From Vreelandella neptunia (lineage in GTDB: Bacteria; Pseudomonadota; Gammaproteobacteria; Pseudomonadales; Halomonadaceae), in the NCBI RefSeq assembly GCF_034479615.1, contig NZ_CP140255.1, forward strand, positions 3,534,001 through 3,598,000: 64,000 nt of DNA, given 5' to 3'. Position 1 is the stretch's first letter; each line of letters opens with the position of its first letter. The position numbers and the translations under genes are program-made. A model generated the notes under the pieces. That model worked only from the letters and a program-made list of their open reading frames with translations. It was not told where the DNA came from and searched no databases. Shown here piece by piece: positions 8,902 through 55,388 of the stretch.

Positions 8902-9073
8902 ACCTAATTAATGACTTATGTAGTCACATACTGTGTTAGCTAGAACTGCGTACCACATTATAAGCCACTGATACTACGTGTCAAATTCGGTTTATTTTGT
9001 AATTTGCCATGCCGTTTCCTCTCATTGGATCTCATATAGTGTCACGAGAAACGGCACGCATACGGTACGCAAA

Positions 9074-10486
9074 ATGAAAACGGAAAAAAATACTAATTCT
9101 CAAAGACGACTACTCACAGATGCCGATATTCGTGCGCTCCCGAAGGGCAAAACGGCGACAGAGTCACAAGCTGGACGAGGGACGGGTGCCACTATATTTG
9201 AGGCTCGCGAGTCTGGTGATATTGATGCTTACTTCAGAGTACGGATGAATGGCAAATCTACAAAAATTAAAATCGGCATATTCAAACGCACTGACAAAAA
9301 ATCAGGTCTCACCTTGAAAGAAATTCGCGATAAAGCACGCGATTTGTCAGCGATTGCCGTTAAACACGGCGATGTTAAGAAATATCTAGAGTTGCAAAGG
9401 GAAGCTGAAGAGCGGGAAATTCGTGAACGTGAACTCGCCTTTTCAGAAGCATTAGTAGCCGCTGAAGAAGAAAACAAGACGGCAAGCTTTGAAGAGCTAT
9501 TCATAGACTATATTGATAGTCTGGAAGGAACGAGAGGGATTGAGTATATCAAGGAATTGAGAAGGGTTTTAAATAACGAGCTTAAGCAAAATCACCAAAT
9601 AATAATGAACAAAAAAGCAAATTCAATAACTCCAAAAGATATAATAGAGATATTACAACCCATTTGGGACCGAAACTCAAAGAGCATGTCCGGAAAAGTT
9701 CGGGCATATCTCCATACAGCGTTTGAGTTTGGGTTAAAAAATGAACACTCACTTAAGCGCAAGAATAAGTCAATTTATTGCTTAGACAGTAACCCGGTCT
9801 CATCAATACCCAAAGACCACAAGACAAAAGCCATAAAAAGATCTTTAAACTCAAAGGAGCTCAATTATTTCTGGCACTCATTCTTGAAGTACGAATCAGT
9901 TGGCCCGGTTGTCACGCGTTTTTTACTTTTTCTTACCGCCACTGGTGGACAAAGGGTCATGCAGGTAGCGCGAGAGCCGTGGACAAGCTACGATTTACGC
10001 AGAGGAGTGTTGAAGACAGAACATCGAAAGGGAAAAATTGAACCTCGTATACATTTAGTTCCTCTTACTGAAAGAGCAATTAAATTATTGCAAGAAGCAC
10101 ATTCCATCAACCCCAGTTCAAAATACCCTTGGTCTACAAATGGCAAAAAACCGATTGATATTAATACCCTAAGTGACGCTGTAAATAAGTGGATTAACTC
10201 ACCATTATCGGTCATGGATGGTGAAGAGTTTGAGAAATTCACACCGCGTGATTTAAGAAGGACCTGTGCACAAATAATGCAATTTAAAGGAATACCAGAC
10301 CTAGATTCTGACATTCTTCAGTCGCATGGAATAAATGGTGTTGTAGAAGATCACTATCGAAATAACCCCTACGCTTTTATGCCAAAAAACTGGAACACTA
10401 TTAATGCATTTGAAGAAGCACTAAATGATATCTTGAATGGGAAAGACCTCGACAAGGATGACATCTATAAGTTTGACTTCTTATAA
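9074..10486 (+). CDS. tyrosine recombinase / integrase
   Basis: This 470-residue protein is a phage or island integrase that recombines att sites. An N-terminal arm-binding region (RLLTDADIRALPKGKT onward) precedes a core-binding region, and the catalytic domain begins near residue 270. It has box I Arg in TATGGQRVMQ (about 292), box II in TPRDLRRTCAQIM (about 393, where the usual His of HxLRRT is replaced), LQSHGINGVVEDHYRNN and the nucleophile Tyr at about 427. An upstream ATG at 8978 would add 32 unlike residues, so 9074 is preferred. It lies beside the tRNA-Thr scar, the usual place for an island integrase. Base composition is more AT-rich than the core genes to the left. Confidence 0.92.
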   Translation: MKTEKNTNSQRRLLTDADIRALPKGKTATESQAGRGTGATIFEARESGDIDAYFRVRMNGKSTKIKIGIFKRTDKKSGLTLKEIRDKARDLSAIAVKHGDVKKYLELQREAEEREIRERELAFSEALVAAEEENKTASFEELFIDYIDSLEGTRGIEYIKELRRVLNNELKQNHQIIMNKKANSITPKDIIEILQPIWDRNSKSMSGKVRAYLHTAFEFGLKNEHSLKRKNKSIYCLDSNPVSSIPKDHKTKAIKRSLNSKELNYFWHSFLKYESVGPVVTRFLLFLTATGGQRVMQVAREPWTSYDLRRGVLKTEHRKGKIEPRIHLVPLTERAIKLLQEAHSINPSSKYPWSTNGKKPIDINTLSDAVNKWINSPLSVMDGEEFEKFTPRDLRRTCAQIMQFKGIPDLDSDILQSHGINGVVEDHYRNNPYAFMPKNWNTINAFEEALNDILNGKDLDKDDIYKFDFL

Positions 10487-16569: not shown

Positions 16570-16884
16570 TTAAGATTTTTTCAGCTTAGCCATCAGCATT
16601 TCCTTCATCTTTTTAGAAGAACGTTCTACAAACATATCTTCTGTTTCTTCCCGCTTGGGCTCACCAATGGCATCACTTAACTCTTTAACAAAGCCATCAT
16701 CTTCAGCGATATTTTTGGCCAGATCATAAAGCTGTGCGCTTTTCACATCCTTTGGTAAATCAGTCTTCTCTGCAGCGGAAACTACGCTTTCAGCTATGAC
16801 AACCGGGAAGGAACTATTCTTTGCAAGAAGATTTCGATTTTCCGGGGCTTTTTGAAAAGTGTAGTAATTATAAAAACTGCTCAT
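16570..16884 (-). CDS. hypothetical protein, second gene of a two-gene operon
   Basis: This 104-residue soluble protein is not recognised. The N-terminus is aromatic (SSFYNYYTFQKAPENRNLL), the middle is an amphipathic helical region, and the C-terminus is a Lys/Met-rich helix (SSKKMKEMLMAKLKKS). No signal peptide or membrane helix is seen. The start overlaps the upstream gene by four bases (ATGA), and a terminator follows closely. The pair is therefore a genuine transcription unit although its role is unknown. Confidence 0.65.
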   Translation of the reverse strand: MSSFYNYYTFQKAPENRNLLAKNSSFPVVIAESVVSAAEKTDLPKDVKSAQLYDLAKNIAEDDGFVKELSDAIGEPKREETEDMFVERSSKKMKEMLMAKLKKS

Positions 16885-17649: not shown

Positions 17650-18477
17650 CTAGACACCCGTTAGGCTCTTAAAGTAACGCCTTTCATACTCAACCGGTGA
17701 TAAGTTATCACTTGTCCCGTGTCGGCGCTTTGGGTTATAGAACATTTCAATGTAATTGAACACGTCACGTCTAGCCGCTTCGCGTGTCGAATAAATCTGT
17801 CGCTTGATTCGCTCTCGCTTGAGGAGTTGAAAGAAGCTTTCAGCAACGGCGTTGTCATGACAGTTACCACGTCGACTCATGCTGCCCACCAACTGATTAG
17901 CTTTCAGAAAGCTTTGCCAGTCTCCACTGCTGAACTGGCTTCCTTGATCCGAATGCACCATCACCGATCCTTGCGGCTTGCGTCGCCAGACTGCCGATAA
18001 CAAAGCATCCAGCACTAATTCCGAGGTCATACGAGACTTCATCGACCAGCCAACCACTTGACGAGAAAACAGGTCGATAACCACCGCTAAGTAAAGCCAG
18101 CCTTCGTATGTTCGGATGTACGTGATATCCGTCACCCAAGCAACATTTGGCGCTGTTACTTCAAACTGACGGTCTAAATGGTTAGGTGATACAACAGCCG
18201 GTTTTCCACCGCCATAGCAGCCAGGGCGTCGTCGGTAGCCCGTCTGGGAGCGTAAACCTTCCCTACGCATCAGGCGGGCCACTCGGTGCTTACCGCAGGC
18301 TTCGCCAGCCTCACGCAAATCCTGGTAGACCTTGCGATAACCATATACACCGCCGCTTTCAAGCCACGCATGCTTGACCAATCCCAAGAGACGCTGATCA
18401 TCCCGGTCTCGATTAGACAGTACTTTTTTGCACCATGCGTAGTAGCCGCTAGGATGCACGGCCATCATGCGGCACAA
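17650..18477 (-). CDS. IS3 family transposase OrfB (integrase core)
   Basis: This 275-residue DDE domain has the IS3 order: HTH_21 region (VYGYRKVYQDLREAG), then the rve core with VAWVTDITYIRTYEGWLYLA (first Asp), VMVHSDQGSQFSS (second Asp) and NCHDNAVAESFFQLLKRE (Glu). It is normally made as an OrfAB fusion by -1 frameshifting on a slippery run in orfA. The open frame continues upstream of the listed Met, as expected for the fusion. Confidence 0.93.
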   Translation of the reverse strand: MCRMMAVHPSGYYAWCKKVLSNRDRDDQRLLGLVKHAWLESGGVYGYRKVYQDLREAGEACGKHRVARLMRREGLRSQTGYRRRPGCYGGGKPAVVSPNHLDRQFEVTAPNVAWVTDITYIRTYEGWLYLAVVIDLFSRQVVGWSMKSRMTSELVLDALLSAVWRRKPQGSVMVHSDQGSQFSSGDWQSFLKANQLVGSMSRRGNCHDNAVAESFFQLLKRERIKRQIYSTREAARRDVFNYIEMFYNPKRRHGTSDNLSPVEYERRYFKSLTGV

Positions 18478-18524
18478 ACGCCGTATCGGATATTGGCTCG
18501 CATGGTTTTGAATAAACGCGTACC

Positions 18525-18803
18525 TCAGTCGGACTCCCTGGCGAAGTACGCGGTGGCCTTTTTTAATATATCTCGCTCTTCTGACACGCGCTTTAGTTCA
18601 GCCTTCAAACGACGGTTTTCAGCGTGGAGATCATCATCTTCTTGTCGTTGTTCTACCGGCTTATCGTAGCGCTTGATCCAGTGGTACAAGCTGTGGCCTG
18701 ACACGCCTAACCGCTCAGCGACTTCGGCAACGCGATGGCCGCGCTCTACCACCTGTTTAACGGCTTCGATTTTGAATTCTTCAGTGTAACGGGGACGGTT
18801 CAT
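18525..18803 (-). CDS. IS3 family transposase OrfA
   Basis: This 92-residue protein has the IS3 OrfA helix-turn-helix (YTEEFKIEAVKQVVERGHRV) followed by a leucine-zipper-like coil (AENRRLKAELKRVSEERDI). Near its 3' end the minus strand has six A residues then G (18559-18564), a classical slippery site for the OrfAB fusion transposase. Confidence 0.93.
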   Translation of the reverse strand: MNRPRYTEEFKIEAVKQVVERGHRVAEVAERLGVSGHSLYHWIKRYDKPVEQRQEDDDLHAENRRLKAELKRVSEERDILKKATAYFARESD

Positions 18804-20191
18804 GGATCCTCCTAGATGCCTTTAGTATAAGGCCTAGAGGTGTCTACGAAACCCGGGGCGATTCAAGGAACACTTGCGTCACCTAGCTCGCGTACACGAT
18901 CAAGGGGCTCTAAACGACGTGTCATTCCTATTTTGAAAACGCTTTCACCAAACGAGCCAACATTAGAGATGATGTAAACATGACCGCGCCTAGTCTGCTG
19001 AGCCATGGAGATCGCACGCTGTTCTTTCGACTCCGCGGCTTGTAGTTGAAGCTCAAGCTCTGCAAGCCGAGCCTCATACTGGGAGCGCTCAGCTTCAGTG
19101 GCATTTTCAAGCTGTTTTCGTGCTTCGGCCATGGCCTTGGCCAGCATCCTCTCTTCTTTTTCTGCCTCTTTGATAGCCTTCTCAAAATCCCTTCGCGCTT
19201 TCTCTTCTTCGCGCATTTGCTCTCGAATGGCGCGCTGCTCTTCTTGCTCGATTCTACGGAGCTCCATAACGGAGACTGCCCACTTCAGCTCCTCAAGCCT
19301 GGCCTGCAAATAGAGATCAGTAATGCGCGCGTCTTTAAAAGGCTTGCCGTTATGGTTGACCAGCGCAAAAGCATCCATTATGCCTTGGCGGAGCTTTCCG
19401 TAATTGTCATGCTTTACCTTGGAAAGAATTGAATCCACCTTTCCGTTAAATGCATCGACAGCAAAATGGATGGCATATTCGCGGCGGATACGCTCAACAT
19501 AATCGCAATCACCAGCACGGCCATTCTTAGCCATGTCAGTGCTTTGTTTGCGAACCTGCTTTAGCCGCTGCCCAGCATCTTTATGAGAAAAGTCTTCGGC
19601 CAAATCATCAAGCAGGCTGGCGTTAGGCACTATGTAATCGTCGTGATACCCCTCAATAATATTCTTCATGGCTTGCGCAGTGCGTTCATAAAGCTTGGCG
19701 TTTTCTACTGCTTTGAGTGCGTCACCAGCTGTTTCTTCAGCCTGCTTGCGAGCATTGGCAATAATGTCGCTAGCGCGATCATGCGCACCTGCAAGCACTT
19801 CCTGGGCTTTACTATCAACATTCTTAGCGCGCTCGCGAATAGCCTTAGCTTCTTCTCGGGCATCAGAAATCATCTTATCTGACTGTTCTCCTGCCTTTCT
19901 TCGCACGCTTAACGCATCCAAACCTGCATTTTCACGAGCTTTTAGTGATTCCGCCAACAGCCGCTTACACTCCAGATCAGACTCCTGCCACAAGCGACCA
20001 GCCTCTTTTTTGGCATCAAGTATCAACCTAGTGGCTTCTGCCTCAGCATCTTCAATAGCTTGGTATTTAATTAAGTGCTCAACCCTGCCACTCAGGTTTG
20101 ATATTTCTCCATCTCTAGTAGCTAGTGCCTCCTCCAGACTGGCTATTAGCTTGCTTTTTTTCTTATTTTTCAGCGAGGTCAATCCATAAAA

Positions 20192-21293
20192 CCTGAATTC
20201 AAACATTAAGCGCAGCACCCGCGGTTTCCAACGCTCCTGAATACTCTCCCAGGAACACTTGTGCCGGTGTCCGATATCCCAAGCGTTTTCTGGGGCGGTT
20301 ATTCAGCTTGGCAACGACTCGCCTCAGTGCTGAGTCGCTCACCTTTCGGAAGTCCGTCCCTTTCGGGAAATATTGGCGGATCAGTCCGTTGGTGTTTTCA
20401 TTGGTGCCACGCTGGCATGAGCGGTACGGATCGCAAAAATAGGTCGTGGCCGAGACGGCCTTGGCAACCTGTCGGTGCTCGGCGAATTCCGAACCGTTAT
20501 CCAAGGTGATGGTTCGCACTGCACCTCGGCGTGGTTTTAATAACCGGGTCATCGCTTTGGCCGCCCCTGTGGCTGTGATCGTCGGCAGGCGCGCTGCCAA
20601 GAGGTATCCGCTGCGTCTCTCGACCAGGGTCACTAGGCCGGATTCTTTGTGGCCCTTGAGCACCGTATCGCCTTCCCAATGGCCGATATAGCGCCTTTCT
20701 TCCACGTCGACAGGGCGTTGTTCAATGCCTACCCGGTGTGGAATTTTGCCCAATCCCGCATGCTTGGCCAATTGACGCTGATAGCGCCGCTGGCGTGGTA
20801 GGCGGAGTCGCTTCCATAATTCGCCGCCGTGTTTCTTGTCGTCCCAGATTAACGCATAGATCCACTGATGGCTTACGTAAACCCCGTTGGCATTCGCCAT
20901 GAAGCCACTAATTTGCTGGGGGCTCCATTCGTCCATCAGTTGATCAGTGACCCATCGAATTAGGCTGGGCAGTCGCTTCGTCACTTTCCAGGCGCTGCGT
21001 CGACGCCGATCACTTCTCAATTGAGCCTGCTCAGGCGCATAGCCAGCAGTAAGCCCATTGCGTTTTATCTCCCGGCTAATGGTGCTGCTGTGAACCCCGA
21101 TAGCCTTGGCTATCTGTCGCTGGCTGATGCCAGTCTCAAGGTAAGCGAAAATTTGGTATCGTTGGGCCTGGGTCAGTTGTCGGTATCCCATTCTCTGCTT
21201 CACTTTGGTCGGTAAAGTCGAGAGGGTACCGGCGCTGGCCCTCCTTCCTCTACTGTGTGATCCAAAGTGCTGCGGTTATTCTATGAATCCAGG
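20192..21293 (-). mobile_element. complete IS30 family insertion sequence (1102 bp)
   Basis: The ends read CCTGAATTCAAAC on the left and TATGAATCCAGG on the right, imperfect inverted repeats. AA on both sides (20190-20191, 21294-21295) is the 2-bp target duplication. It restores the reading frame of the host DUF4041 gene, which fixes the boundaries. It carries one intact transposase. Confidence 0.88.
20199..21203 (-). CDS. IS30 family transposase
   Basis: This 334-residue transposase has the IS30 N-terminal helix-turn-helix (MGYRQLTQAQRYQIFAYLE, SQRQIAKAIGVHSSTISREI) and the DDE core: YIGHWEGDTVLKGHKESGL (first Asp), TITLDNGSEFAEH (second Asp) and GTNENTNGLIRQYFPKGTDF (Glu). The start is a GTG at 21203. 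It is intact. A related, diverged remnant lies at 22598-22858. Confidence 0.95.
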   Translation of the reverse strand: MKQRMGYRQLTQAQRYQIFAYLETGISQRQIAKAIGVHSSTISREIKRNGLTAGYAPEQAQLRSDRRRRSAWKVTKRLPSLIRWVTDQLMDEWSPQQISGFMANANGVYVSHQWIYALIWDDKKHGGELWKRLRLPRQRRYQRQLAKHAGLGKIPHRVGIEQRPVDVEERRYIGHWEGDTVLKGHKESGLVTLVERRSGYLLAARLPTITATGAAKAMTRLLKPRRGAVRTITLDNGSEFAEHRQVAKAVSATTYFCDPYRSCQRGTNENTNGLIRQYFPKGTDFRKVSDSALRRVVAKLNNRPRKRLGYRTPAQVFLGEYSGALETAGAALNV

Positions 21294-21941: not shown

Positions 21942-22320
21942 CCCCCTTTCATGCAATTAACTATCTATTGCATGAAAGCCCCTCCCATGCAATTAAGTCA
22001 ACGTAATGTGCCCCTCCCCCCTTCCATGCAAGTAGTTATTGCATGGAAGCCCCAAAATTCGAATAAAAATTATGAGAGCTCTTCTTAAAAAGCTAATGCA
22101 TCATGCCCCCCTTTCGTGCAACTACTACTTGCATGAGAGGGGGGTACAGTGCGGTATTGCATGAGAATGTCGTTTTTTAATTGTTTCAGTTACCTCATCC
22201 ACTAATAATCTGAGAGCTCTTCTTAAAAATTCTATTGCATCGCCACCCCCTCTCATGCAAGTAGTAGTTGCATGGGAGGCGGTCGCGATGCGGTATTGTA
22301 TGAGAATGTGATTTTTATTT
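21942..22320. repeat. array of four related hairpins in degenerate direct repeats
   Basis: Four imperfect palindromes share the core CATGCAA, a 7-11 base loop and TTGCATG: 21942-21982, 22016-22053, 22106-22144 and 22243-22282. Each is flanked by a C-run on the left and often a G-rich or GCCCC right side. The last two lie in a degenerate direct repeat of about 105 bases with a 138-base period (22074-22178 and 22212-22320). Both units begin GAGAGCTCTTCTTAAAAA and end with TGCGGTATTG, ATGAGAATGT and a T-run. No coding frame explains the region. Confidence 0.8.
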
Positions 22321-22416
22321 GCATCAGATACCAAATCAGCTATTAGTGATCACACGTTTTAAATTTCGTAACCAAGATGATTGTTCAAATAATGCGTGGT
22401 TTTTTTACCAGCGCTC

Positions 22417-22552
22417 AAAGTACGCTGTGTGTACTTTTCAGTACTCCACAGATACTCTCAGCGCACTTGGCGTTGACACTATTACTTCAAGCCAACAATA
22501 TTAAACATTACATCGCTGAAAATGTGCTCTAAAAGTACACTGAGTGTACTTT
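22417..22552. repeat. pair of 21-bp palindromes, possible operator pair
   Basis: AAAGTACGCTGTGTGTACTTT (22417-22437) and AAAGTACACTGAGTGTACTTT (22532-22552) differ at two positions. The second is a perfect palindrome around a central G. The centre-to-centre distance is 115 bases. They look like binding sites for a dimeric regulator or replication/partition protein, but no matching gene is adjacent. Confidence 0.6.
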
Positions 22553-22597
22553 AGAGACTTCTTAGAGTGCAAAGCTAGCAATTTAAATTTTTAAAAT

Positions 22598-22866
22598 GAT
22601 GTCTCCGCAAAGACCTATTTTTGCGACCCGTACCGCTCATGTCAGCGTGGTACCAATGAAAACACCAATGGCCTGATTAGACAGTATTTTTCTAAAGTTA
22701 CTGGTTTCCGAAAAGTGACCAATGCCGAGCTACGAAGTATCGTCAATAAGCTAAACGATAGACCAAGAAAGCGGCTGGGATACCGAACCCCAGCCCAGGT
22801 GTTCTTAGGTGAATACTCAGGGCCACTTAAAACCGCAGGTGCTACACTTATTAGTTGAATTTAGAA
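22598..22866 (+). pseudogene. IS30 transposase C-terminal remnant
   Basis: The plus strand encodes the last 86 codons of an IS30 transposase: VSAKTYFCDPYRSCQRGTNE, NTNGLIRQYFSKVTGFRKV, NDRPRKRLGYRTPAQVFLGE and a stop at 22858. It is similar to, but clearly diverged from, the intact copy at 20199-21203 and lies in the opposite orientation. The 5' three quarters are missing. TGAATTTAG after the stop resembles the element's terminal repeat. Confidence 0.9.
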
Positions 22867-23144
22867 AACTGATAGCACAGGGCAACGGCAGCGTCTTTTT
22901 TCGCGAATTCTCTTTGACTGCGTCGTATTGATGCATGTCATCCAGCTTGGGCAGCTAAGGCTATGGAAGCAGGGTACAGGTTGTTCAGAGTTAAATTTTC
23001 ACACGACTAAGCCGTGAAAATGCCATGCGTAAAAGCACCGCACATAGCTTAGTCGAGCACAATTCTCTGGTGGGTTAGCCCAGCACCACAAGCGCTGGGT
23101 TTCTAGCTTTATTAAGCAACGATTTAACAACTTACTTTAAAAGA

Positions 23145-38537: not shown

Positions 38538-40658
38538 TCAGGCGAACCAGGGGCTCATGTGACCATATCCAAATACGAATGCTAGCTTACGCGCCCGAGT
38601 TAGGCTCACATAAACCAGAGCTCGCTCTTCATTCTCTCGCTGGCGGCGGGTAACGGCATCTGACGCAGCGCTCACTACAAAATCGAGCGGAAGTAGTCCT
38701 CGGTTAACCGAGGCGATGAATACTGCATCAAACTCAAGACCTTTTACCCGGTGCATAGTGGCTAAGTTCAGAGCGCCATCGGGTGTGCGCGTGCTGCGGC
38801 CATCTAACAAGTGACAACGCTGTTGACGGCTTTCTAACGCATGTTTTAGTTCTGTGACTTCTTTGCGTGTTCGCGCAATCACACAGCAGGCCTCTGGTAC
38901 TAAAGCATTATCTTCTATGGACACTAATATCGCCTCGGCTTGCTCGTCCATGCTATCGAAGCAGCGTATTTCTGGCGCAGGCCCGTGCATCAAAGAGTGA
39001 TAAAACGCCTGGGTATCTTCACCGCCATCTAAGTCATCAACGGCGACACCTTCTAATACGCTCACTGCTAGTTGACGCGTTTCATCAGTGGTGCGGTAAT
39101 TCACTTTTAACCGCGCACTGCGGCCTCGAATGTTGATTCCACACTGGCCTAGCACCACTTTGTTTTTGCCGTAAATCCGCTGGTGACCGTCGCCCACCAT
39201 AAACAGATCATTTTTACCTTCAGGCACTAATGCTCGCAGTAGCATAAACGCCTGAGTGCCCATATCTTGGGCTTCATCAACAATCACGGAACTGATGGCA
39301 GGCCGCAGATCAGGGTTAGCCTCCAAGAGCTTGCGCGCGTCGCGGTAAGCATCATCAGCTTCTTTGAGATGGTTACTGGCCAATAAATGACGATAACGTT
39401 CAAACACTGGCCAAATCTCCGCTCGCTGCTGGCGATTCAGGCGCGTACCACGCCCCAAGCGTGATGCTTTTTTATAAACCTCTACCGTCGTCACTGACTG
39501 AGGCTGAACCACCCTGGCCCACTCTTCTTTGAAAAATGCCACCGTCAGGTCTGAGCTAGCGGGCTTTTCGGCGTAGGCATCATTCCACAACCTGTTTTCT
39601 TCTTTAGCATTCATCAACAGGCCATAGTCATAGCCCACTTTTTTGAGAAAGCTAACTACCCACGCATCTAAGTTCACCACCTCGATATGTTTTAGCACTG
39701 CCTGTGAACAAATCTTATTTAAATTTTGCTGAATATCGGCGGCCAAATTACGGGTAAAGGTGGTGAATAAGACTTGACCCTCGCTACTCCCTTGCTTTTC
39801 AGCAAGTTGCTCTGCCAACCATTTAGCACGGTGCATCGCGACGACCGTTTTGCCGGTACCCGCACCGCCTAAGACACGCACTGGGCCGTTTTTATCGCCA
39901 GTAGACAAACGCCGCTGGGCTGGATGCAAGAAGACACGCCATTTTTCCAACGACTGACTTAGCACTTCTTGCAAAGCTTGTTCATTATCGGCCACCGCGA
40001 AATGTGCCCGCGATTCCGGCCGCGCTAATGCGGTACTGAAGTCCTCAATGTCCACCTTATCAGGAACTGTTGGCACGGTTTCTTGATACGCCTCTTCAAA
40101 ACTCGCCCCGGCCATCAACATGAATAGGCCTTCGTAAGCATCTGGAGGGAGCTGGTCATTATCGCGAGCAATCTCAAGATCTGCTTCAATTTTCATACTG
40201 CGTATTAAAGGAATCGTTTCTTCCGGCACGCCTAGCTGCATCAACTGCCTATCACGAATCGCATCAAACAGACCAGCTTGCACTGGGGGCATGGGTTGAT
40301 GGGCAGGGTTCTGTAAAACTCCTTCTTCAACGGTAAACATCTGCAAGCTGCCGGTATTGGGGTTAACTTCCACCTTTCGCTTTGCCGCCCACGTATAAGC
40401 CGGTTCGTGATGGTCCACATACAGCATTAAATAGAGGTTTTCTTTTTCGGCAGCAGCCAAAATAATGCGCACGTCTTGATTGGCACGTATTGAGCGCAGC
40501 TTGTTGTCTTTAAACGCGGTCAATCGTTCATAGTGCAACCCACCATGCTGAGGATCCTGTTGGAACAGCATCACCGCCTTGTTAGCTTGGCTCTGTTCAT
40601 TGGGTGTGAGCTTTAACAGGCTTTCAAAATACTTTTCGGAGAAGGCTACGCTGACCAT
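38538..40658 (-). CDS. UvrD-like SF1 helicase with N-terminal RelE-like domain
   Basis: This 706-residue protein is the last gene of the operon. Residues 1-95 (VSVAFSEKYFESLLKLTPNE, LTAFKDNKLRSIRANQDVRI, YLMLYVDHHEPAYTWAAKRK) resemble a RelE/ParE-type ribonuclease or gyrase-toxin fold. Then comes a UvrD/Rep helicase: Walker A VLGGAGTGKTVVAMHRAKWL (near 262), Walker B SVIVDEAQDMGTQAF (near 457), NLATMHRVKGLEFDAVFIA and VYVSLTRARKLAFVFGYG. An upstream ATG at 40730 lies in the previous gene; AGGAG before 40658 fixes the start, one base past the upstream stop. DNA unwinding is likely. Whether the RelE-like part is catalytic cannot be judged from sequence. Confidence 0.88.
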   Translation of the reverse strand: MVSVAFSEKYFESLLKLTPNEQSQANKAVMLFQQDPQHGGLHYERLTAFKDNKLRSIRANQDVRIILAAAEKENLYLMLYVDHHEPAYTWAAKRKVEVNPNTGSLQMFTVEEGVLQNPAHQPMPPVQAGLFDAIRDRQLMQLGVPEETIPLIRSMKIEADLEIARDNDQLPPDAYEGLFMLMAGASFEEAYQETVPTVPDKVDIEDFSTALARPESRAHFAVADNEQALQEVLSQSLEKWRVFLHPAQRRLSTGDKNGPVRVLGGAGTGKTVVAMHRAKWLAEQLAEKQGSSEGQVLFTTFTRNLAADIQQNLNKICSQAVLKHIEVVNLDAWVVSFLKKVGYDYGLLMNAKEENRLWNDAYAEKPASSDLTVAFFKEEWARVVQPQSVTTVEVYKKASRLGRGTRLNRQQRAEIWPVFERYRHLLASNHLKEADDAYRDARKLLEANPDLRPAISSVIVDEAQDMGTQAFMLLRALVPEGKNDLFMVGDGHQRIYGKNKVVLGQCGINIRGRSARLKVNYRTTDETRQLAVSVLEGVAVDDLDGGEDTQAFYHSLMHGPAPEIRCFDSMDEQAEAILVSIEDNALVPEACCVIARTRKEVTELKHALESRQQRCHLLDGRSTRTPDGALNLATMHRVKGLEFDAVFIASVNRGLLPLDFVVSAASDAVTRRQRENEERALVYVSLTRARKLAFVFGYGHMSPWFA

Positions 40659-40659
40659 T

Positions 40660-43600
40660 TTAAGCTCCTGAGTCCAATTCATGTAAGGTGGCTGCCAACG
40701 CGTCGACAGACGTGCAGATGTGCCAGCCATCGGCTTCCAAATAAGGTCTTGCGGCGGCTTGATCCTCTATTTCTTCTAACAACAGCGCGACCTTTTGAGC
40801 GTCGAACTGAAGCTCAACTTCCCCCACCACCTCATCGAACTCTCCTGCAGTCAGTTCTTCAGCCACCCGCGCCTGAGCGGGCCATACAATATCGTGTCCT
40901 TTAAGTGCCATCGCTAGCGATTCATCTAACAAAGTAAACCACTCAGGATATTGCTCGGAAGAAGCCTTCTCTAAAGGTGCCTGCTGCTCTGGCCATAGAA
41001 AACCCGCCGCAATACCACTGCTTTTCGACTCCGGCGTCCATGCATAGAACACCGGCAAGAACTGTAGGAAATTAAAGGCTGTCCATAAGCGCTGCCATTG
41101 ATAGCGGGCAGCATCTTCACTGCTGTTGTTAATGTCGTAGACGAGCGTTGCCATCACGCGAGTCAAATCTAAAGTGGTCAGCAATTCTTGAGCAGCCACT
41201 ACCTCTAAGGTCAGCGTGGCAGGTCCATGCTGATCTAACAGTGAAACGCTACCCGTGAGAGCTACAGGTTCAGGTGTTAGGTCAGTAAACGAGGCGGGTA
41301 AACCCCTTAGGTTATCCAGCACCCGCTGCTTGATAGCGGTGTCAGCCAGAGATTTTCCAGGCAAGCACTGAAAGAGAAACAGTAATGCCTGTTTTGCCAG
41401 GGCGTCGGTATTCTGTTCGCAAAGAAAATGCAGCAACAGCTGGAAAGTCGATTTACTTAAATGTTCCGCCGTGTTGCTAACTCCAGCCTTCACGGCCAAA
41501 CCTGCAATTGCCTGATGATTGTGTTCAGGGGATGTCATTCCCGCTGGTAGGGGCACATCCATGGCTTTATCGCCCATCACACTATTGATGTCGTACCAAT
41601 TGAGCGACCACACCACAAAACCTGCATGAACAAGTGCTTGGCGCTTGAGTAAGTCATCGTTAGCGGTACGAGCATGGTATCGATAGCCATCTAGGAAAAT
41701 AGCCACCGGTTTTAGCTCACTACGTGCTGGCCACATCACAAAATCTGGGCGACTGGCAAACTGAACACCTTCAGGAGCGCCCAAATCTACCTGTGGCTCC
41801 AGCTCATAACCTACATCGCCTATCGTCAGACGATAGCCGTGCTTACCACGAACCACGTCCTGAGAAACCCGTACCTTCTGCTCTGCTACGCAGGAGGTGC
41901 CCGAAAAACGCGTTAAGGCTTCAGGAAAACGCGCTTCTAGTTCGCTGTCTATCCAGGGGTTGCCACCCAAGGCACTCAGTGACTCTGCGTTCTTGACCCA
42001 CTCATGGCCCCCTTTTACTACCTCTTTAAGCATTTCTAGCGCCAGCCCTTTGCTGGTGCTCTCCATGCCGTAGGCATTGCGATATTCAAGCAGGCAGCGG
42101 TAACAACCATCCATGGTGTTGTCGTAACAATCGCAGCGATCCATCACTTCATACGCCATCTGAAACACGGCCTGCATGTTCTCAGCGCGGCTTAAAAGCT
42201 CGTGCAAATAACCTGTTCCACCAGGCACCGAGTCATATAACACAATAAAGTGTCTACGCTCGTCGGTTTCACCTATTGGCTCGCTTTGATATGCCACTCG
42301 CAAGTGATCAACCTTACCCCCAAAGCGGCGCTTTAGCCCCAGCTGTAAAGCTGCCACAAAGGAATTAACCTGCTCCTCTGTGCCACCCGTCGCCAACCTG
42401 GGCAGTAAAATTCGCAGCCCTTCCGAGGTAAAACGGCGGTAAAGATATAGGCAATTTTCGATGCCAAGATCTTCTTTACCGCTCGCTAGCTTTTTAGGTC
42501 CACGGGAGTAGCGGCATGACTTTAGGTGAACAGCCTCCTTTTTACCGGCGGCTGCCGCTTTTGATTGCACCGAACCGCACTCTCTGCAAATGGGAAACCC
42601 AGTCCGTTGGATATGCTCACCGGCCACATCAAAGTACATCTCCTCGCCCTCTCGTCGGCCAAAATTCACCTCCAAGAAGTTAGCCGCCCGGATAAACTCA
42701 AACCCAAAGGGCTTATCCTTATCATCCAGCACCCAGGTAATCGTGATGTCTGACGGTGCAAAGTCGATCAACATCTGCTTATTGAAGAACACCGGCTCGC
42801 GATCATCAGAGCGATCGTCCAACTGTGCTTCTTTCGCATTGGTAAACGCATACACCTGGGTCATTTTCAGCATTTTGGTGCGTGCGCTTGCATCACCCCA
42901 CTGATTGGTACGGCAACGCGGGCAGGTTTTATCACTAAACCCAGCGCTGGGGTCATCCGCTGGGGCGGAGTAGTGGCAACGGGGGCAGAATCGCCAGTCT
43001 TGAATATTACGGCCTTTAGCCGTTTCCACACGGGTTACGGTGACACGTCGGCTACCCGCATAAAACACCGATTCAGGAGCCAGCTCGGTGAGTGCCGCCT
43101 GGGCAGGACGCTGGTATTCATATTCGCGCTTGATGAACTCGCGCTCGGCACCGCTGCCCGCGACGGCTTTATCCGAGCGGAAAATCACCGAATGAAGTGT
43201 CGCGCCCTCTTCGGGAAACGCGTAATTCGGTAGTAGGCCTTCATCGGTAAAGAAGTTAAGCGTTTCGCGCTTATTCATGCGTATCCGCATTCCCCGGTAG
43301 CCTGCTGACTCCCGCTCCAGCTCCATCATTTCTGCTTGAGTATGCTCATCCTGAGGTTGCTTGCGCAGCTTTTCTAACTGCTTGTCTAGCTCTTTAATTG
43401 TACCCGCCATTCGCTGACGCTCATCGGCGACCAACCTGAGTCGATTCAGCACATAGAGCCGCAGATGATCTTCACTATGCTGGGGGCCACCAAACAGATA
43501 CTGGCGCAGTAGCTCTTGGTCTTCATCACTTAATTGGGTTGCCACATGGCTGACAAAGCCATCCCACACTTCCTGCATGTTGTGTTCAATAAAAGTCAGC

Positions 43601-46600
43601 AGCGTGTAGGGAAAACGATCTTGCTGCGTTTTCTCAACGACATCCAATACCGGCTGCATGCCGGCGGGCACAACGTTTTCGCCCTTTGCCGCACGGGTCC
43701 AGCAGTCCATCGCGTAGGCCAACAGCTGGCGGCGCAACACATGGCGTGCTTTTAGGAAAACAGCTGGGGGTTCTACCGGTGTATCCAGCATTCGGCTGGG
43801 GTCGGCATAAAACACCAAATCATGGGGTCGACCGTTAGCTACGGTTAACACAAATGAGTTGCCGTCCCGGCGACCACCGCGTCCTACCCGCTGCAAATAA
43901 TTGGCTTGCGCAGGTGGCACGGAACATAGCAATACGCTGGACAGGTCACCAATATCAATCCCCATTTCCAGCGTCGGCGTCGCTGAAAGCAGGTTATATT
44001 CCCAAGGTTTGTCACCTTTTATAAAGCTGTTTTCCACCCGCACCCGGTCACTACTGGCCAGCAAGCCGGTATGTTCGTGAGCAATCACGCGGTGAATTTC
44101 ACCGTGTCGGAATAGCGTACGATACAGCGAATCACGCAACGGTCGAGTATGCTCATATACCCGACGTGGGTCGGATGCGTTGAGCAATGGCAATCCTATC
44201 CACTGGGCAGCATGGTCGGCAGGTAAATGAAGCGGCCGATAACCTGGGCATTCTACGGCCTGTATATCGCAAGTAATGGCTAGTTGTTCTGGGTTAAGAA
44301 CCCAAAGCGCAACACCACTTTCGTTTTGTTCTTGCCGAACTAACCCGGAAGCACACAGCGCTTCTAAAGCAGTGACGATAACTTGCTCACGCTGCTTTTT
44401 ATCAACGAGCGCTTCAGGATTTAAGCACCCTAACCAGCGCTCGTACCAAGTTTGAACATTATTGCTGTGTGTAAGTAGCTCGTAGCCTTCACCGTTACCC
44501 GTCGCTGGGTATTTTGGGCGCGGCGACCCAGGCCCCAGCGGGGGAACATAGTGCAAAAATTTAAGTAAATACGCAGTACCCGATTTTTCTCGGTAATATC
44601 GCAAATCCTCTAAACCAACCGCACCTAAATGGGTCATGTGTTGCATCAAACCCACCATAAACCCAGCGGCTGCCTCACGATCGATTCGGTAACCCAACGT
44701 ATTATCTACCGTCTCAGCCCAATGCGCGGCGGCTTGTTCAACCCGTACCAACGGCCAATCCAATGCCGCTATGCCCAGCCGATTGAGTGACCGCCCCACC
44801 TGGGAACGCCAGGCCACATCCTCCAATGCCTGCCACAACATACGCTGACGAATTAACTGCAGCAGGCGTTCCGGGGCTTTCACTTCGCCGGTTAATTCAA
44901 AGTGCTCAAAATCAGCGCTAAAGCGCTGGTCGGGTGGCATAAACTCACGCAGATAGTAGGGCAGCGACAGCCGCCCCTGAAGGCCTGCATGGTTCAGCCA
45001 GAACGCTTCAAACTGCTCAGGTAGCTGCAGAATGGGTAACGGCTCAGCGTGGCTTTCAAGCAGTTGGGTTAACGCCATACGCACGTTATTTTGCCAGGTA
45101 CGCGCAGCGAAAAAGCCTGCCCGATGGGTGGCATCCTGCACCGAGTCACTGAAGGTCAGCAGCTTGCGATCGTCGTTATCACGGCTGCTAAATAGCTGAT
45201 GAATGGCCACTGCGCTTAGGCTGGCAGCCCGCGCACCAAACACAATTAACGACTTTTTAGCCGCACAGTAAGGGCAGCTGTTTTCATGAATCACGCGATT
45301 CACGCCACCACGGGTTTCTTCTTTTAGCTGGTGTGGTTTGCTTACTCGCACCAGCGCTTCATTGACTGCCTGGCACCCTTTACATGCGCCAGTAAAATCG
45401 GCTGCTGCTGTTTTGCCACACTGGCAACACACTTTAAAATTATGAAGCACCGTGCCAGCAGGAGATTGTTTTTCGCCCTGCTGCCAAGGCAGTAACAAGG
45501 TGGTTTCCGCATGGTGGCTAAAAAAGCTGGAATAAATAGCTTGAAGCTCTGTTTCCACCACATCATCGGTGACAGCTCCGCCTTCCATACGGGTTAACCA
45601 CGCAGTGCCATGGCACTCACGACACTGCACCAACGGCAAGCGCACCTGGGGCTGGTCTTTGGGCGGCTGGTCGTCACCAAACGACAACAGCGGAGCATGT
45701 TCTAGAGCGCTTTCTTCTCCTTCGGATACATGCCCTGCAGATATGTGAACAGTGACATCAGGCTCCCGAAGGGTTCCCACAATCCGTCGTAGTTCCCGAG
45801 ACCACAGCTGCATACGCAGTTGCACAAAGGGCCGCCCGACCTGATCTCTCGCATGGGCCACCAACGACAACAGCGCCAGCAACGCCTGCTCAGGCTGGCG
45901 TGCAAACTGCTGTGGCACCTGCGCCGCTAATTTATTGACTAGTGCTTGGAACGTTGGCGTACCGCTACCCAGCTTTAACTGGCGCAGCAAGTTAGCCACT
46001 TGGCCATGCTGCTTTAATTCCGCCCCTAATGCTTGGCGTCCTGTCTCTGTCGAGAGCGCATCATCAGGTGCCTTACTGAAAAACAGCTGATAAGCCGTAT
46101 ACAAATACGTATCTAACCCTTCCTGCAACGCCACCTGTAACGCTTCTGGGCCAATTTGCGGATTTAGGTTCAAAAACGCGATGTTATCCAGGAACTCGGT
46201 GTCACTCATGCGCTGCTCAGCAATCACCGAATCACGCCCAAACGGGCTGGAGAAAATATCCCCCGCATACGAAAGCAGCCCGTTAACACTGTCATCACCG
46301 CCCAGCGTTGCAGAAGTGCCTACACAAATAAGCTGCTCGGGCTGCATATCAAAGCGTGCCCGTAAACGACGGATCAACAAAGAAAGATCTGTTCCCTGGG
46401 CACCATCAAAGGTGTGTAGCTCATCGACCACCAAATAACGCAGCGTATCTTGCCCATTGTGCGCCCACAGCTTTTGATCTTTTGGGCGCATCAGCAGGTA
46501 ATCCAACATTTTATAGTTGGTAAGCAGTACGTCTGGTGGGTTATTGCGCAGGGTGTCTTTATCCGTGATGACCTGATCTGGCCCCATCATCTTACTCCCC

Positions 46601-47109
46601 TGGCCATCACCGCCAACAAATAGCCCAACTCGCAGACCTTTTAGCGCAGGTTGCTGGTAAACCTCTTTGGCAAAACGCTTAGCTTGGTCAGTCGCCAGCG
46701 CGTTCATTGGGTAAATCACGATGGCTTTAATACCAGGGTCATTCGCCCGCTGGCAGTGATCAAGCACCGGGTACATAAAACACTCGGTTTTGCCTGATCC
46801 TGTGCCGGTAGCGACTAGGGTATTCGCCGCTTTTCGATCAGAGGCCAGGCGCTGCCACGCCTGCTCTTGATGAGCATAAGGAGGAAACTCTGTTTCAAAC
46901 CCCTTAAAAAAATCTCGCCCCGATGCGCCGATTAAGAACGGCAAGCCCACCGAAATATATGGCCCTTTAATAAACGCCTCACCGCCCTGCTGCTCTTCCA
47001 CCAAGCGCTGAAACTCGCCTTTGAATGGCACCGTTTCGGTTTCAAAACCAGTCACAATAAATTCGCGCAGGGCGGCAGAGACTTCACTAGCAAGTAGGCC
47101 GGGGATCAT
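40660..47109 (-). CDS. giant DEAD-box helicase with DUF1998 (DrmA/DrmB- or DruE-like)
   Basis: This 2149-residue protein is an SF2 helicase with a DUF1998 end. The N-terminal motor has Walker A VATGTGSGKTECFMYPVLD (about 99-117), NALATDQAKRFAKEVYQQ, the Walker B variant RYLVVDELHTFDGAQGTDL and motif VI LQRVGRGGRRDGNSFVL (near 1080). Several zinc-ribbon Cys sets follow (CCQCGKTAAADF, CPYCAAKKS, CPRCHYSAPADD, CPRCRTNQW, CRECGSVQS). The DUF1998 signature is GGTGYLHELLSRAENM then RCDCYDNTMDGCYRCLLEYR. Similar giants occur in Druantia (DruE), and the two parts resemble DISARM DrmA plus DrmB. The ATG at 47109 has AAGGA at good spacing; an upstream TTG is less likely. Confidence 0.9.
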   Translation of the reverse strand: MIPGLLASEVSAALREFIVTGFETETVPFKGEFQRLVEEQQGGEAFIKGPYISVGLPFLIGASGRDFFKGFETEFPPYAHQEQAWQRLASDRKAANTLVATGTGSGKTECFMYPVLDHCQRANDPGIKAIVIYPMNALATDQAKRFAKEVYQQPALKGLRVGLFVGGDGQGSKMMGPDQVITDKDTLRNNPPDVLLTNYKMLDYLLMRPKDQKLWAHNGQDTLRYLVVDELHTFDGAQGTDLSLLIRRLRARFDMQPEQLICVGTSATLGGDDSVNGLLSYAGDIFSSPFGRDSVIAEQRMSDTEFLDNIAFLNLNPQIGPEALQVALQEGLDTYLYTAYQLFFSKAPDDALSTETGRQALGAELKQHGQVANLLRQLKLGSGTPTFQALVNKLAAQVPQQFARQPEQALLALLSLVAHARDQVGRPFVQLRMQLWSRELRRIVGTLREPDVTVHISAGHVSEGEESALEHAPLLSFGDDQPPKDQPQVRLPLVQCRECHGTAWLTRMEGGAVTDDVVETELQAIYSSFFSHHAETTLLLPWQQGEKQSPAGTVLHNFKVCCQCGKTAAADFTGACKGCQAVNEALVRVSKPHQLKEETRGGVNRVIHENSCPYCAAKKSLIVFGARAASLSAVAIHQLFSSRDNDDRKLLTFSDSVQDATHRAGFFAARTWQNNVRMALTQLLESHAEPLPILQLPEQFEAFWLNHAGLQGRLSLPYYLREFMPPDQRFSADFEHFELTGEVKAPERLLQLIRQRMLWQALEDVAWRSQVGRSLNRLGIAALDWPLVRVEQAAAHWAETVDNTLGYRIDREAAAGFMVGLMQHMTHLGAVGLEDLRYYREKSGTAYLLKFLHYVPPLGPGSPRPKYPATGNGEGYELLTHSNNVQTWYERWLGCLNPEALVDKKQREQVIVTALEALCASGLVRQEQNESGVALWVLNPEQLAITCDIQAVECPGYRPLHLPADHAAQWIGLPLLNASDPRRVYEHTRPLRDSLYRTLFRHGEIHRVIAHEHTGLLASSDRVRVENSFIKGDKPWEYNLLSATPTLEMGIDIGDLSSVLLCSVPPAQANYLQRVGRGGRRDGNSFVLTVANGRPHDLVFYADPSRMLDTPVEPPAVFLKARHVLRRQLLAYAMDCWTRAAKGENVVPAGMQPVLDVVEKTQQDRFPYTLLTFIEHNMQEVWDGFVSHVATQLSDEDQELLRQYLFGGPQHSEDHLRLYVLNRLRLVADERQRMAGTIKELDKQLEKLRKQPQDEHTQAEMMELERESAGYRGMRIRMNKRETLNFFTDEGLLPNYAFPEEGATLHSVIFRSDKAVAGSGAEREFIKREYEYQRPAQAALTELAPESVFYAGSRRVTVTRVETAKGRNIQDWRFCPRCHYSAPADDPSAGFSDKTCPRCRTNQWGDASARTKMLKMTQVYAFTNAKEAQLDDRSDDREPVFFNKQMLIDFAPSDITITWVLDDKDKPFGFEFIRAANFLEVNFGRREGEEMYFDVAGEHIQRTGFPICRECGSVQSKAAAAGKKEAVHLKSCRYSRGPKKLASGKEDLGIENCLYLYRRFTSEGLRILLPRLATGGTEEQVNSFVAALQLGLKRRFGGKVDHLRVAYQSEPIGETDERRHFIVLYDSVPGGTGYLHELLSRAENMQAVFQMAYEVMDRCDCYDNTMDGCYRCLLEYRNAYGMESTSKGLALEMLKEVVKGGHEWVKNAESLSALGGNPWIDSELEARFPEALTRFSGTSCVAEQKVRVSQDVVRGKHGYRLTIGDVGYELEPQVDLGAPEGVQFASRPDFVMWPARSELKPVAIFLDGYRYHARTANDDLLKRQALVHAGFVVWSLNWYDINSVMGDKAMDVPLPAGMTSPEHNHQAIAGLAVKAGVSNTAEHLSKSTFQLLLHFLCEQNTDALAKQALLFLFQCLPGKSLADTAIKQRVLDNLRGLPASFTDLTPEPVALTGSVSLLDQHGPATLTLEVVAAQELLTTLDLTRVMATLVYDINNSSEDAARYQWQRLWTAFNFLQFLPVFYAWTPESKSSGIAAGFLWPEQQAPLEKASSEQYPEWFTLLDESLAMALKGHDIVWPAQARVAEELTAGEFDEVVGEVELQFDAQKVALLLEEIEDQAAARPYLEADGWHICTSVDALAATLHELDSGA

Positions 47110-47196
47110 TTTTATATCCTTAAAGGGCAATATAATTTAAAATTTACAAACAAATCGCCATAAATTTAAAAAAACCGTATAAAGGTTAATGTAAAT

Positions 47197-49098
47197 TTAA
47201 TTGAAATTATTAATAGACACAGCCTTCCATCCCCATTCACTACGTTTTTTATTGAAGGTCAGAAGAGCAACACCTTCCACCAAACCTTCGTCTTTAAGGT
47301 TATGTATTTTCACCAAATCCGGAGGGATAAAAATCTCGGAAGAAGTAAAACCAAGCCCCGTATCATTAATCCTCACTAGCTCCTGAAACTCTTTTCGCAA
47401 TGACTGAGATGCCACTGAGCAGCTCTTTTTCGCTGAAAGCACCCGATATCTGGTTCCATCCTTGGTCGTATACTTGGAGAGTCTGACTAAGATAGAGTCA
47501 CCTACTTTGTACTCTTCATTTAAATTAGAAAAAGGTATAGTTCCGTCAATTTTTGTTTCTACTAGAAAGTGAATTAATTTTTTCTGTTGATTGACGTTAT
47601 CTACTACTCCAATACGCTCGAAGAAAACATCCCATTTTACTTCTGAATTTCGGCTGGAAATTAAATGAATCTGAAATCTATTTTGGGCATCCCACTCACC
47701 TTTAACACGAATTGCACTCCCAGCTAGTGAATTCTGAATATTAAATTTACTTTCAGGAATGACCACTTCTATTGGATCAGAAGCTGTTTTCAGATACAGT
47801 TTCCTTTTCGGCTTGCTTTCTTTTCCTGGAATAGTGAACATTTCTCCAAGATTCGCTGTAATCCATGGGAGCTGACTAAACAAAAGATCCTCTGCTGACC
47901 CTTTTTGGCTGCGATAAAACTCATCATTTGAAGCTAGAATTGATGCATCTAAATACCAATCCTCAGTAATATAATCTTCAATTTCAGCAGGAATTTTTGT
48001 TCCCTCTTTTTGTTTAGCTTCAAGAGTGCGTTTAATCTCATACTTCGCCTCTGGAAACTGGCCTCGTTCAATCATCAGTGTAGCTACTTTTAACCTAATT
48101 TTACTTGAATATCGATCATCCGGTGAACACAAAAGTGCTTTACAATAGCAACTGAGGCTTACTTCATCCCCCTTTTTTGCGGTAATATTACCTAGCAGCT
48201 CCCAGGCCCAGTATTCGTTGGACTTTGCTCTAGTTACCTCAATAGAAAATGCCAAAGCGTCGTCACTTCTATCCAACTCTAAAAGAACTTTAGCTTTATT
48301 CAAAACAAGCCAAATATTGTCTGGATAAGTTGAGATCGCCTTGCCCAAGTAAGGGAGTATATAAACTAGTGAATTCTGATCATTACCTTTGGCAGCATCC
48401 TTGCTGGCCTGCTGAATTACCCTCTCTGCCAGCGCTGGAAGCTCCTTACCGTCATCCGTTTTAAATCGCTCCCAATCTTCTGGACGTAAGAACTCTAGAT
48501 TCCACAACTGACAGAAAGCCGCCATATTAAATCGATCATCACTAGCCAGCTTTGCTGCCACCTGCAGCATCACAGCATGAAGCAGCGATGGCTTTTCAAC
48601 ATTAAGCTTCATATATTGATTAAGATTCTTCTTAATTTTTACGAGGTTATTATCGCCTTTGCTTAACAAGGGCTTTGAAAGACGGTACAGTTCCCAACCG
48701 AACGATATTGATAATTCTGGATCCCCGGGGTTATCTTGTAAGAGCTTCTGATACAGTGCAATGGCATTGTCGTGTTGCCCCGCCTTACTCAACTGTCTGG
48801 CTTCGTTGACGAGTTGACCCTCGGGATTACATAGAGAGATGGCAAGCTGACGCTGTTTAGTTAGCACATCATCGTTCTCGGGCACAGCAATTGCTTCAAG
48901 CTGCTGGCGGTAATGGCTGAGATTAGTCTGCTCTCCTGCTTTAGCGTCCCGCTTAATCAAATCAATCAAGCACCAGCCGAAAGCCCGATCATCCCACTCA
49001 TCTTTATTGGGGACACTCATTCTTTGCAACGCCATTTGATAGGCCTCATCTATCTGGCCAGCTTTCCGCTTCGCAAAAATGTCTTTACTGGTAATCAT
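47197..49098 (-). CDS. TPR-like protein with C-terminal OB-fold-like region
   Basis: This 633-residue protein is not assigned to a named family. Residues 1-400 are alpha-helical repeats of tetratricopeptide type (KAGQIDEAYQMALQRM, AGQHDNAIALYQKLLQDNPG, LGKAISTYPDNIWLVLNKAK, GQFPEAKYEIKRTLEAKQKE). Residues from about 430 are beta-rich with S1/cold-shock-like patterns (GVVDNVNQQKKLIHFLVETK, EEYKVGDSILVRLSKYTTKD), suggesting nucleic-acid binding. The start overlaps the RecD-like helicase gene by four bases. Base composition is clearly more AT-rich than the methylase and the giant helicase. It is likely an adaptor or sensor for the adjoining helicase, an inference from coupling. Confidence 0.75.
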   Translation of the reverse strand: MITSKDIFAKRKAGQIDEAYQMALQRMSVPNKDEWDDRAFGWCLIDLIKRDAKAGEQTNLSHYRQQLEAIAVPENDDVLTKQRQLAISLCNPEGQLVNEARQLSKAGQHDNAIALYQKLLQDNPGDPELSISFGWELYRLSKPLLSKGDNNLVKIKKNLNQYMKLNVEKPSLLHAVMLQVAAKLASDDRFNMAAFCQLWNLEFLRPEDWERFKTDDGKELPALAERVIQQASKDAAKGNDQNSLVYILPYLGKAISTYPDNIWLVLNKAKVLLELDRSDDALAFSIEVTRAKSNEYWAWELLGNITAKKGDEVSLSCYCKALLCSPDDRYSSKIRLKVATLMIERGQFPEAKYEIKRTLEAKQKEGTKIPAEIEDYITEDWYLDASILASNDEFYRSQKGSAEDLLFSQLPWITANLGEMFTIPGKESKPKRKLYLKTASDPIEVVIPESKFNIQNSLAGSAIRVKGEWDAQNRFQIHLISSRNSEVKWDVFFERIGVVDNVNQQKKLIHFLVETKIDGTIPFSNLNEEYKVGDSILVRLSKYTTKDGTRYRVLSAKKSCSVASQSLRKEFQELVRINDTGLGFTSSEIFIPPDLVKIHNLKDEGLVEGVALLTFNKKRSEWGWKAVSINNFN

Positions 49099-51980: not shown

Positions 51981-53185
51981 TTCGATATCACCCTAAGCCC
52001 TTTCCTCAATAGGACCCGCTCAAATACATAAAGGCCATGTGGTACAAAATCATTCTCTTTAACGAATTTATTGATCTCCTTTTTTCTCATAGGGAGAGGG
52101 ATGAACGAGTCAACTTCTAACTGCTTATCTCTCGCAATTAGCGGAGCGATATCCTTTTCAAAATCAAGCTCAAGCTCGAAAACAGCGGAGACACCTATTT
52201 CGAAGTTATTCATTTCCAAAAAGAAGTCGTAGAAGGCCGCCTTGACTGCAAGCTGGTAAATATTTTCATCAATACCAAGTTCTTCAAGCAGGCCTCGCTT
52301 GAAACAGAGCTCTATATCAACTTTCCCGAAAGGGTCTTTGTCTGTTCTCGAGAGGCCTTCGTTCATCGTGATATGATATTTGGATTTCCCACCGGCAACC
52401 CTCGCCGACCTCTTACTCAGTACCACTTCCTTGCCTTTCCCACCGTCACAAATCAGAAGACAGTTCACTCCAAACGATGTGAAAAATGGTCGATAATTTA
52501 GAAACGTGTCTGAATTCGCTTTGGCTATTTCATGCCCTCTCTCTTTCAGCTCATGGTAGATCGATCGAAAAACCCGGTGCGTAAAATAGTCTGTTTTGAA
52601 AAGATCGATTTCAACGCCGGGATTTTCCTCTTCGCCAAACCGGGTAAATCGAAGGTTGAAAACACCGTATTTGTCACCGTTGAAAATCATTCCCTCAGTT
52701 GCTTCGAGAAACTTTCGCCCCACGAGCACACGGTGTTTTCCTATTAGCTTAGCTAACTCTTCAATTCCGGTGATTTTGACAAGATCATTAAACGAGCTGC
52801 CACCATCAAACGAGGTGTCTTCGTGAAACTCGGTAAACTGGGAATCCATATAACCGAGCTCTTTCTCTTTGGATCGGAGTTCGTCCTTGAGGTGTTTTGG
52901 CATGTTGATATAAAGGCACCGCTTCTCACCAAAGCGCGATATTTCCCGTGAAAAAATGTTCCTTTTTTCAAATTCAGGATCTCCAGTCGCCAGATCAACG
53001 ACGTTGATTGCCTCTTTCTTCTTCCGGTAGGCCAAAATCTCTGAACGAACTCTTCTCCGGAACATTGTCTTGCGAATACCGGCATAAACCTGCTGAATAC
53101 AGAACAAAATGACAGAGCCCACTAGCAGGTAGAACAGCTCCGAAGTGCCATCATTCGTTATCCGGTCAATAAAAGCCTGAAACAT
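51977..53185 (-). CDS. membrane-anchored Nudix-like protein
   Basis: This 402-residue protein has one N-terminal transmembrane helix (SELFYLLVGSVILFCIQQVY, residues 15-34), a basic stretch, a middle region of unknown fold, and a C-terminal domain with a degenerate Nudix box. That box reads HITMNEGLSRTDKDPFGKVD, then ELCFKRGLLEELGID at about 286-300. It keeps the two-Glu core LLEELGI, but the leading Gly-x5-Glu is displaced and the usual Arg-Glu pair is Arg-Gly. It may hydrolyse or only bind a nucleotide derivative at the inner membrane. The start follows the 81-residue gene's TAG directly (TAGATG), with GGAGAAG overlapping that gene's end. It is a candidate effector of the operon. Confidence 0.7.
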   Translation of the reverse strand: MFQAFIDRITNDGTSELFYLLVGSVILFCIQQVYAGIRKTMFRRRVRSEILAYRKKKEAINVVDLATGDPEFEKRNIFSREISRFGEKRCLYINMPKHLKDELRSKEKELGYMDSQFTEFHEDTSFDGGSSFNDLVKITGIEELAKLIGKHRVLVGRKFLEATEGMIFNGDKYGVFNLRFTRFGEEENPGVEIDLFKTDYFTHRVFRSIYHELKERGHEIAKANSDTFLNYRPFFTSFGVNCLLICDGGKGKEVVLSKRSARVAGGKSKYHITMNEGLSRTDKDPFGKVDIELCFKRGLLEELGIDENIYQLAVKAAFYDFFLEMNNFEIGVSAVFELELDFEKDIAPLIARDKQLEVDSFIPLPMRKKEINKFVKENDFVPHGLYVFERVLLRKGLRVISK

Positions 53186-55385: not shown

Positions 55386-55388
55386 TGA

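Follow-up and report, generated by a model that had tools for sequence, protein, structure and literature searches.

A palindromic site array beside paired palindromes in a mobile defence region of Vreelandella neptunia

The DNA analysed here, called the window, is a stretch of 64,000 nt from Vreelandella neptunia (GCF_034479615.1, NZ_CP140255.1:3,534,001-3,598,000); positions are counted from its first letter. Four inverted repeats lie in non-coding DNA at 21942-22320. Their building block is the 11-mer TTGCATGRRAG, which is arranged as inverted pairs round a short asymmetric centre and also occurs as unpaired half-sites at 21982, 22157 and 22296. This array forms the left half of a conserved block of 658 bp. 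The right half holds two near-identical 21-bp palindromes, P1 and P2, with the motif AAAGTACRCTGWGYGTACTTT. The features, with strand where one applies, are as follows.

21942-22599 (658 bp): conserved non-coding block with hairpin array and paired palindromes, 87% identical to Vreelandella populi L011:10029-10686
21946-21978: hairpin 1, with inverted arms TTGCATGAAAG round a centre of 11 nt; forms the left edge of the conserved block
21982-21992, minus strand: unpaired half-site TTGCATGGGAG
22021-22049: hairpin 2, 11+7+11
22066-22203: direct-repeat unit R3, 138 bp, holding hairpin 3
22104-22146: hairpin 3, core 22111-22139; 22106-22144 exactly inverted relative to V. populi
22157-22167, plus strand: half-site TTGCATGAGAA, 28 bp past the right arm of hairpin 3
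22204-22340: direct-repeat unit R4, holding hairpin 4
22233-22295: hairpin 4, core 22250-22278, the longest stem
22296-22306, plus strand: half-site TTGTATGAGAA, 28 bp past the right arm of hairpin 4
22417-22437: palindrome P1, AAAGTACGCTGTGTGTACTTT
22532-22552: palindrome P2, AAAGTACACTGAGTGTACTTT, 115 bp from P1
22866-23058, plus strand: frame-shifted remnant of a GmrSD_N/DUF7834 gene; the V. populi counterpart, L011:11196-12731, follows the block

The initial annotation described four hairpins of the same design inside 138-bp direct repeats, with G-rich sequence after each. All four are indeed built on one 11-mer, but only hairpins 2, 3 and 4 have the 29-bp layout of 11+7+11; hairpin 1 has arms of 11 and a centre of 11 bases. 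The direct repeats (76-79% alike) enclose hairpins 3 and 4 but not hairpins 1 and 2. Likewise, G-runs follow hairpins 3 and 4 only, and CCCC follows the other two. The description of the region as non-coding, repeated and tied to a mobile and defence region is supported, and the roles proposed there included recombination sites. The conserved unit, at 21942-22599, extends beyond the array that had been described.

In the window, a PD-Lambda-1-like DUF4041/T5orf172 gene abuts an IS30-type transposase gene at 17650-21203, with IS3-type genes nearby. A large defence cluster at 38541-55388 encodes TOTE/PDC-M16 proteins, a DruE-like helicase and a GmrSD/DUF262 protein. Only one integrase was found there, encoded by a Phage_integrase gene (8972-10483, a frame of 504 codons) that lies 11 kb from the array and about 6 kb from a polA-like gene at the window start. 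It may belong to the island of the window itself.

Chance is excluded as the source of the four hairpins. Among 200 dinucleotide-shuffled versions of the region, a single one had any comparable hairpin, compared with four observed in 379 bases, and CATGCAA...TTGCATG pairs are found nowhere else in the 4.95-Mb genome (0.02 are expected by chance in 64 kb). Nine hairpins of this strength occur in the whole window, and four of these are in the array.

Two of 82 genus genomes carry the array, namely that of the window and that of Vreelandella populi strain MC. With the strict hairpin pattern, no further arrays were found in 84,980 species, V. populi alone showing the array context. When up to two mismatches were allowed, 275 family genomes gave elsewhere only isolated chance matches, all singletons. 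The covariance-model search proposed in the initial annotation (R1, 390 genomes of the order) matched only the window's own genome; V. populi was absent, probably because it lay outside the sample. The array had no blastn match among plasmid and phage records. In viral contigs, the strict pattern matched three contigs, all at the same chance palindrome within one coding gene. No description of the array was found in the open-access literature. To the extent covered by these searches, this particular site has no earlier description; mobile islands with clusters of palindromic sites for binding or recombination are, as a kind, already known.

The number, order and spacing of the sites are the same in V. 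populi at 87% identity, and the 11+7+11 geometry of sites 2, 3 and 4 holds in both species. The centre GTAGTAG is present in five of the six copies of these sites, one copy being inverted, and the core word is invariant. Seven of the 11 stem pairs are invariant in sequence across all eight hairpin copies; what is preserved is thus the sequence and not the pairing alone, as expected where a protein binds. The left edge of conservation coincides with hairpin 1, where different truncated genes are joined in each genome: an apparent broken DNA methylase gene (judged by eye) in the window, and in V. populi a 3'-terminal piece of umuC, whose break lies no more than about 3 bases from hairpin 1. Fragments of umuC on opposite strands bracket the V. 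populi island, at L011:9851-10021 by recC and at 16624-16845 by lldD. We did not accept umuC as a simple insertion target there, given the opposite strands of the flanking pieces.

The two halves of the block differ in how well they are kept. The palindrome half (22296-22599) is 91.7% identical between the species, against 82% for the linked pseudogene (p = 0.0025). The hairpin half, with hairpin 3 flipped back, is 86% identical against the same 82% for the frame-shifted GmrSD remnant (p = 0.21, not significant), so its divergence is about that of the adjoining pseudogene.

Hairpin 3 (22106-22144) matches V. populi at 39 of 39 positions when inverted and at 32 of 39 when read directly (0 vs 7 mismatches). 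Such an inversion is a DNA-level behaviour. Flips and arm-by-arm correction are properties of palindromic DNA and, we infer, can alone yield symmetric changes. The compensating arms quoted in the initial annotation, CTTTC/GAAAG and CTTCC/GGAAG, are both present, but the conclusion drawn from them, that selection keeps the stems paired, is not supported. Changes on both sides were seen in 2 of 11 stem pairs. When partners were shuffled among the sequences (eight hairpins from two species, a sample of low power), 236 of 500 shuffles equalled or exceeded the covariation score and 212 of 500 the count of both-sided changes. The same annotation had taken a lack of further copies and of covariation as grounds for giving up its view; covariation was no better than in shuffles, and copies were limited to one further genome.

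Of 275 family genomes, exactly seven contain the AAAGTACRCTGWGYGTACTTT palindromes, and each of these has two copies separated by 72-116 bp. Further pairs are at L037 9012/9116, L038 8488/8560, L039 9137/9241, L040 7017/7089 and L036 4600/4716. In four of the seven genomes, an Integrase_1 (PF12835) tyrosine recombinase and a partner of about 130 aa lie 0.6-0.8 kb from the pair, where a defence island ends. For comparison, any Integrase_1 gene was found in 21 of the 275 genomes. Some of the pair-bearing islands encode type I restriction or BREX-like systems, as read from translations. No Integrase_1 gene is present in the two array carriers (G000 and G034), and no hairpins of the array type are present at the four Integrase_1 loci; the array is thus linked to the integrase only through the AAAGTAC pair. 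The palindrome pattern gave one unrelated phage match in viral contigs. G088 may have a diverged pair (L103:230, 354) ahead of an integrase that resembles these. G210 (L101:72-400) has five copies of the palindrome GTGTTTCCGGGGGAAACAC, about 71-83 bp apart, adjoining another Integrase_1 gene. The palindrome pair, which is better conserved than the array, is the more general lead.

Downstream of the block, V. populi has two GmrSD/DUF262 genes; the remnant at 22866-23058 of the window corresponds to the first of them. The islands of V. populi, G027 and G040 share one hotspot junction near lldD, at which the GmrSD genes of V. populi occupy the place of the integrase in the other two.

Our best explanation, which we hold tentatively, is that the array could be a palindromic protein-binding or recombination region of a defence island mobilised by a tyrosine recombinase. 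The inverted pairs and single copies of TTGCATGRRAG would most likely be bound by a putative dimeric protein, which may have been the recombinase now lost or may be an accessory protein. The array would then be part of the end or control region of the island, with a role in recombination or in island control, and the AAAGTAC pair points to the Integrase_1 islands of this genus. The genome of the window retains no Integrase_1 gene, and the copy in the window is therefore probably a relic. The 11+7+11 geometry, the nearly constant centre and the invariant core word argue for this explanation, as do the matching arrangement of sites in V. populi, the edge of conservation at hairpin 1, the inversion of hairpin 3, the association of the AAAGTAC pair with Integrase_1, the shared junction near lldD and the better conservation of the palindrome half. 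The lack of Integrase_1 in the array genomes, the lack of such hairpins at the four Integrase_1 loci, a hairpin half not significantly better conserved than a pseudogene (p = 0.21) and the opposite strands of the umuC pieces argue against it. A more specific version seems improbable to us: Integrase_1 would drive a family of defence islands not described before, and the array would be the end of such an island at which recombination uses several sites, with the tandem 11+7+11 sites beside the conserved palindrome pair as a platform for exchanging defence cassettes (such as GmrSD, BREX or type I restriction genes).

Known systems resemble the array to different degrees. Core sites of tyrosine recombinases (lox, dif/pdif, the lambda att core) have inverted arms of about 11-13 bp and an asymmetric centre of 6-8 bp, which 11+7+11 fits; in the array, too, the centre is nearly constant while the arm ends vary, and its block is linked to palindromes beside Integrase_1 genes. 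With limits of 9-13 bp for the arms and 6-8 bp for the centre, sites 2-4 of both species have this geometry and site 1, by its centre, does not. Unlike these core sites, the array has sites in tandem, and its islands have no recombinase in either genome, nor does a cognate recombinase adjoin the array in either. To our knowledge, the arms are nothing like dif/pdif. Integron attC sites are also imperfect palindromes that can fold as single strands, and they too occur near tyrosine recombinases, but the array lacks RYYYAAC/GTTRRRY boxes (judged by eye only), IntI and gene cassettes between the sites. Strand-biased circularizing elements (SEs) and GInts, the latter reported also from Halomonas, are multi-gene tyrosine-recombinase islands of Gammaproteobacteria; SEs have inverted terminal motifs and carry intA-tfp-intB-srap and terminal repeats of 13-19 bp (PMC10214605). 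The related islands here differ in having one Integrase_1 gene and the protein of about 130 aa, none of them together with the array.

Operators are a serious rival, though we consider them unlikely. Here the array would consist of sites for a repressor encoded by the island, with the downstream defence genes or the former integrase under its control and no recombination at the sites. Several half-sites at fixed spacing, the position of the block ahead of the two V. populi GmrSD genes and a sigma-70-like TTGACA-18-AATATT/AATAGT, which both species have between P1 and P2, are consistent with this. However, the promoter count is no higher than in shuffles, and the first GmrSD gene is 0.75-1.2 kb from the array. 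The GmrSD pairs of G046, G020 and G239 have no array upstream, and the related pair of an E. coli plasmid sits between hsdS and hsdR.

Incidental palindrome expansion is equally to be taken seriously, and we regard it as rather unlikely. A hairpin-prone sequence would have been locally duplicated and inverted, by template switching in replication or by cruciform resolution, and would have no function. The flip of hairpin 3 is what such a process could produce, mutual correction of the arms explains symmetric changes without selection, and in the only two genomes that carry it the hairpin half has diverged much as the linked pseudogene has. Functionless expansion does not sit well with the number and spacing of four sites and extra half-sites being kept in two species, or with the 7 of 11 stem pairs that are invariant in all eight copies.

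A structured non-coding RNA, either a riboregulator or an RNA antitoxin with tandem repeats, is less likely than these two, and we judge it quite improbable. The region is non-coding, adjoins defence genes and has a very stable predicted fold (z about -9). The values for the two strands (z = -9.8 on plus, -8.9 on minus) are similar, so neither is clearly preferred. The imperfect stem pairs of the plus strand comprise 4 G-U and 5 A-C, and this balance favours no strand as RNA. A Rfam scan of both strands gave nothing near the gathering score, the hairpins having only chance-level matches to miRNA and snoRNA, and promoter- and terminator-like sites in the region are at the level of shuffles. Together with covariation that did not exceed the shuffles (low power, eight sequences), this speaks against the structured RNA family of the initial annotation. 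A kissing-loop contact between hairpins 3 and 4 was rejected, since their loops are complementary in the window but not in V. populi. Type III toxin-antitoxin RNA repeats (ToxIN) also adjoin a defence gene in tandem, but the unit of the array is much longer, no ToxIN-family toxin was seen in the interval, and there is no sign of selection at the RNA level.

The REP-like element also proposed there, or a MITE-type repeat moved in trans by a RAYT or another transposase, shares with the array short imperfect palindromes as inverted pairs in non-coding DNA, but is refuted by copy number: REP/REPIN copies are many and dispersed, and the array is at one locus per genome in two genomes, with chance singletons only in the 275 family genomes and its context in V. 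populi alone among 84,980 species (strict pattern).

The reading of the locus as palindromic DNA sites thus replaces the first one, as RNA or REP. The palindrome pair exposed beside the array is a marker, within Vreelandella, for defence islands of a tyrosine-recombinase type. Should the recombinase of the island use these sites, they would reveal how defence genes are exchanged at a single chromosomal hotspot.
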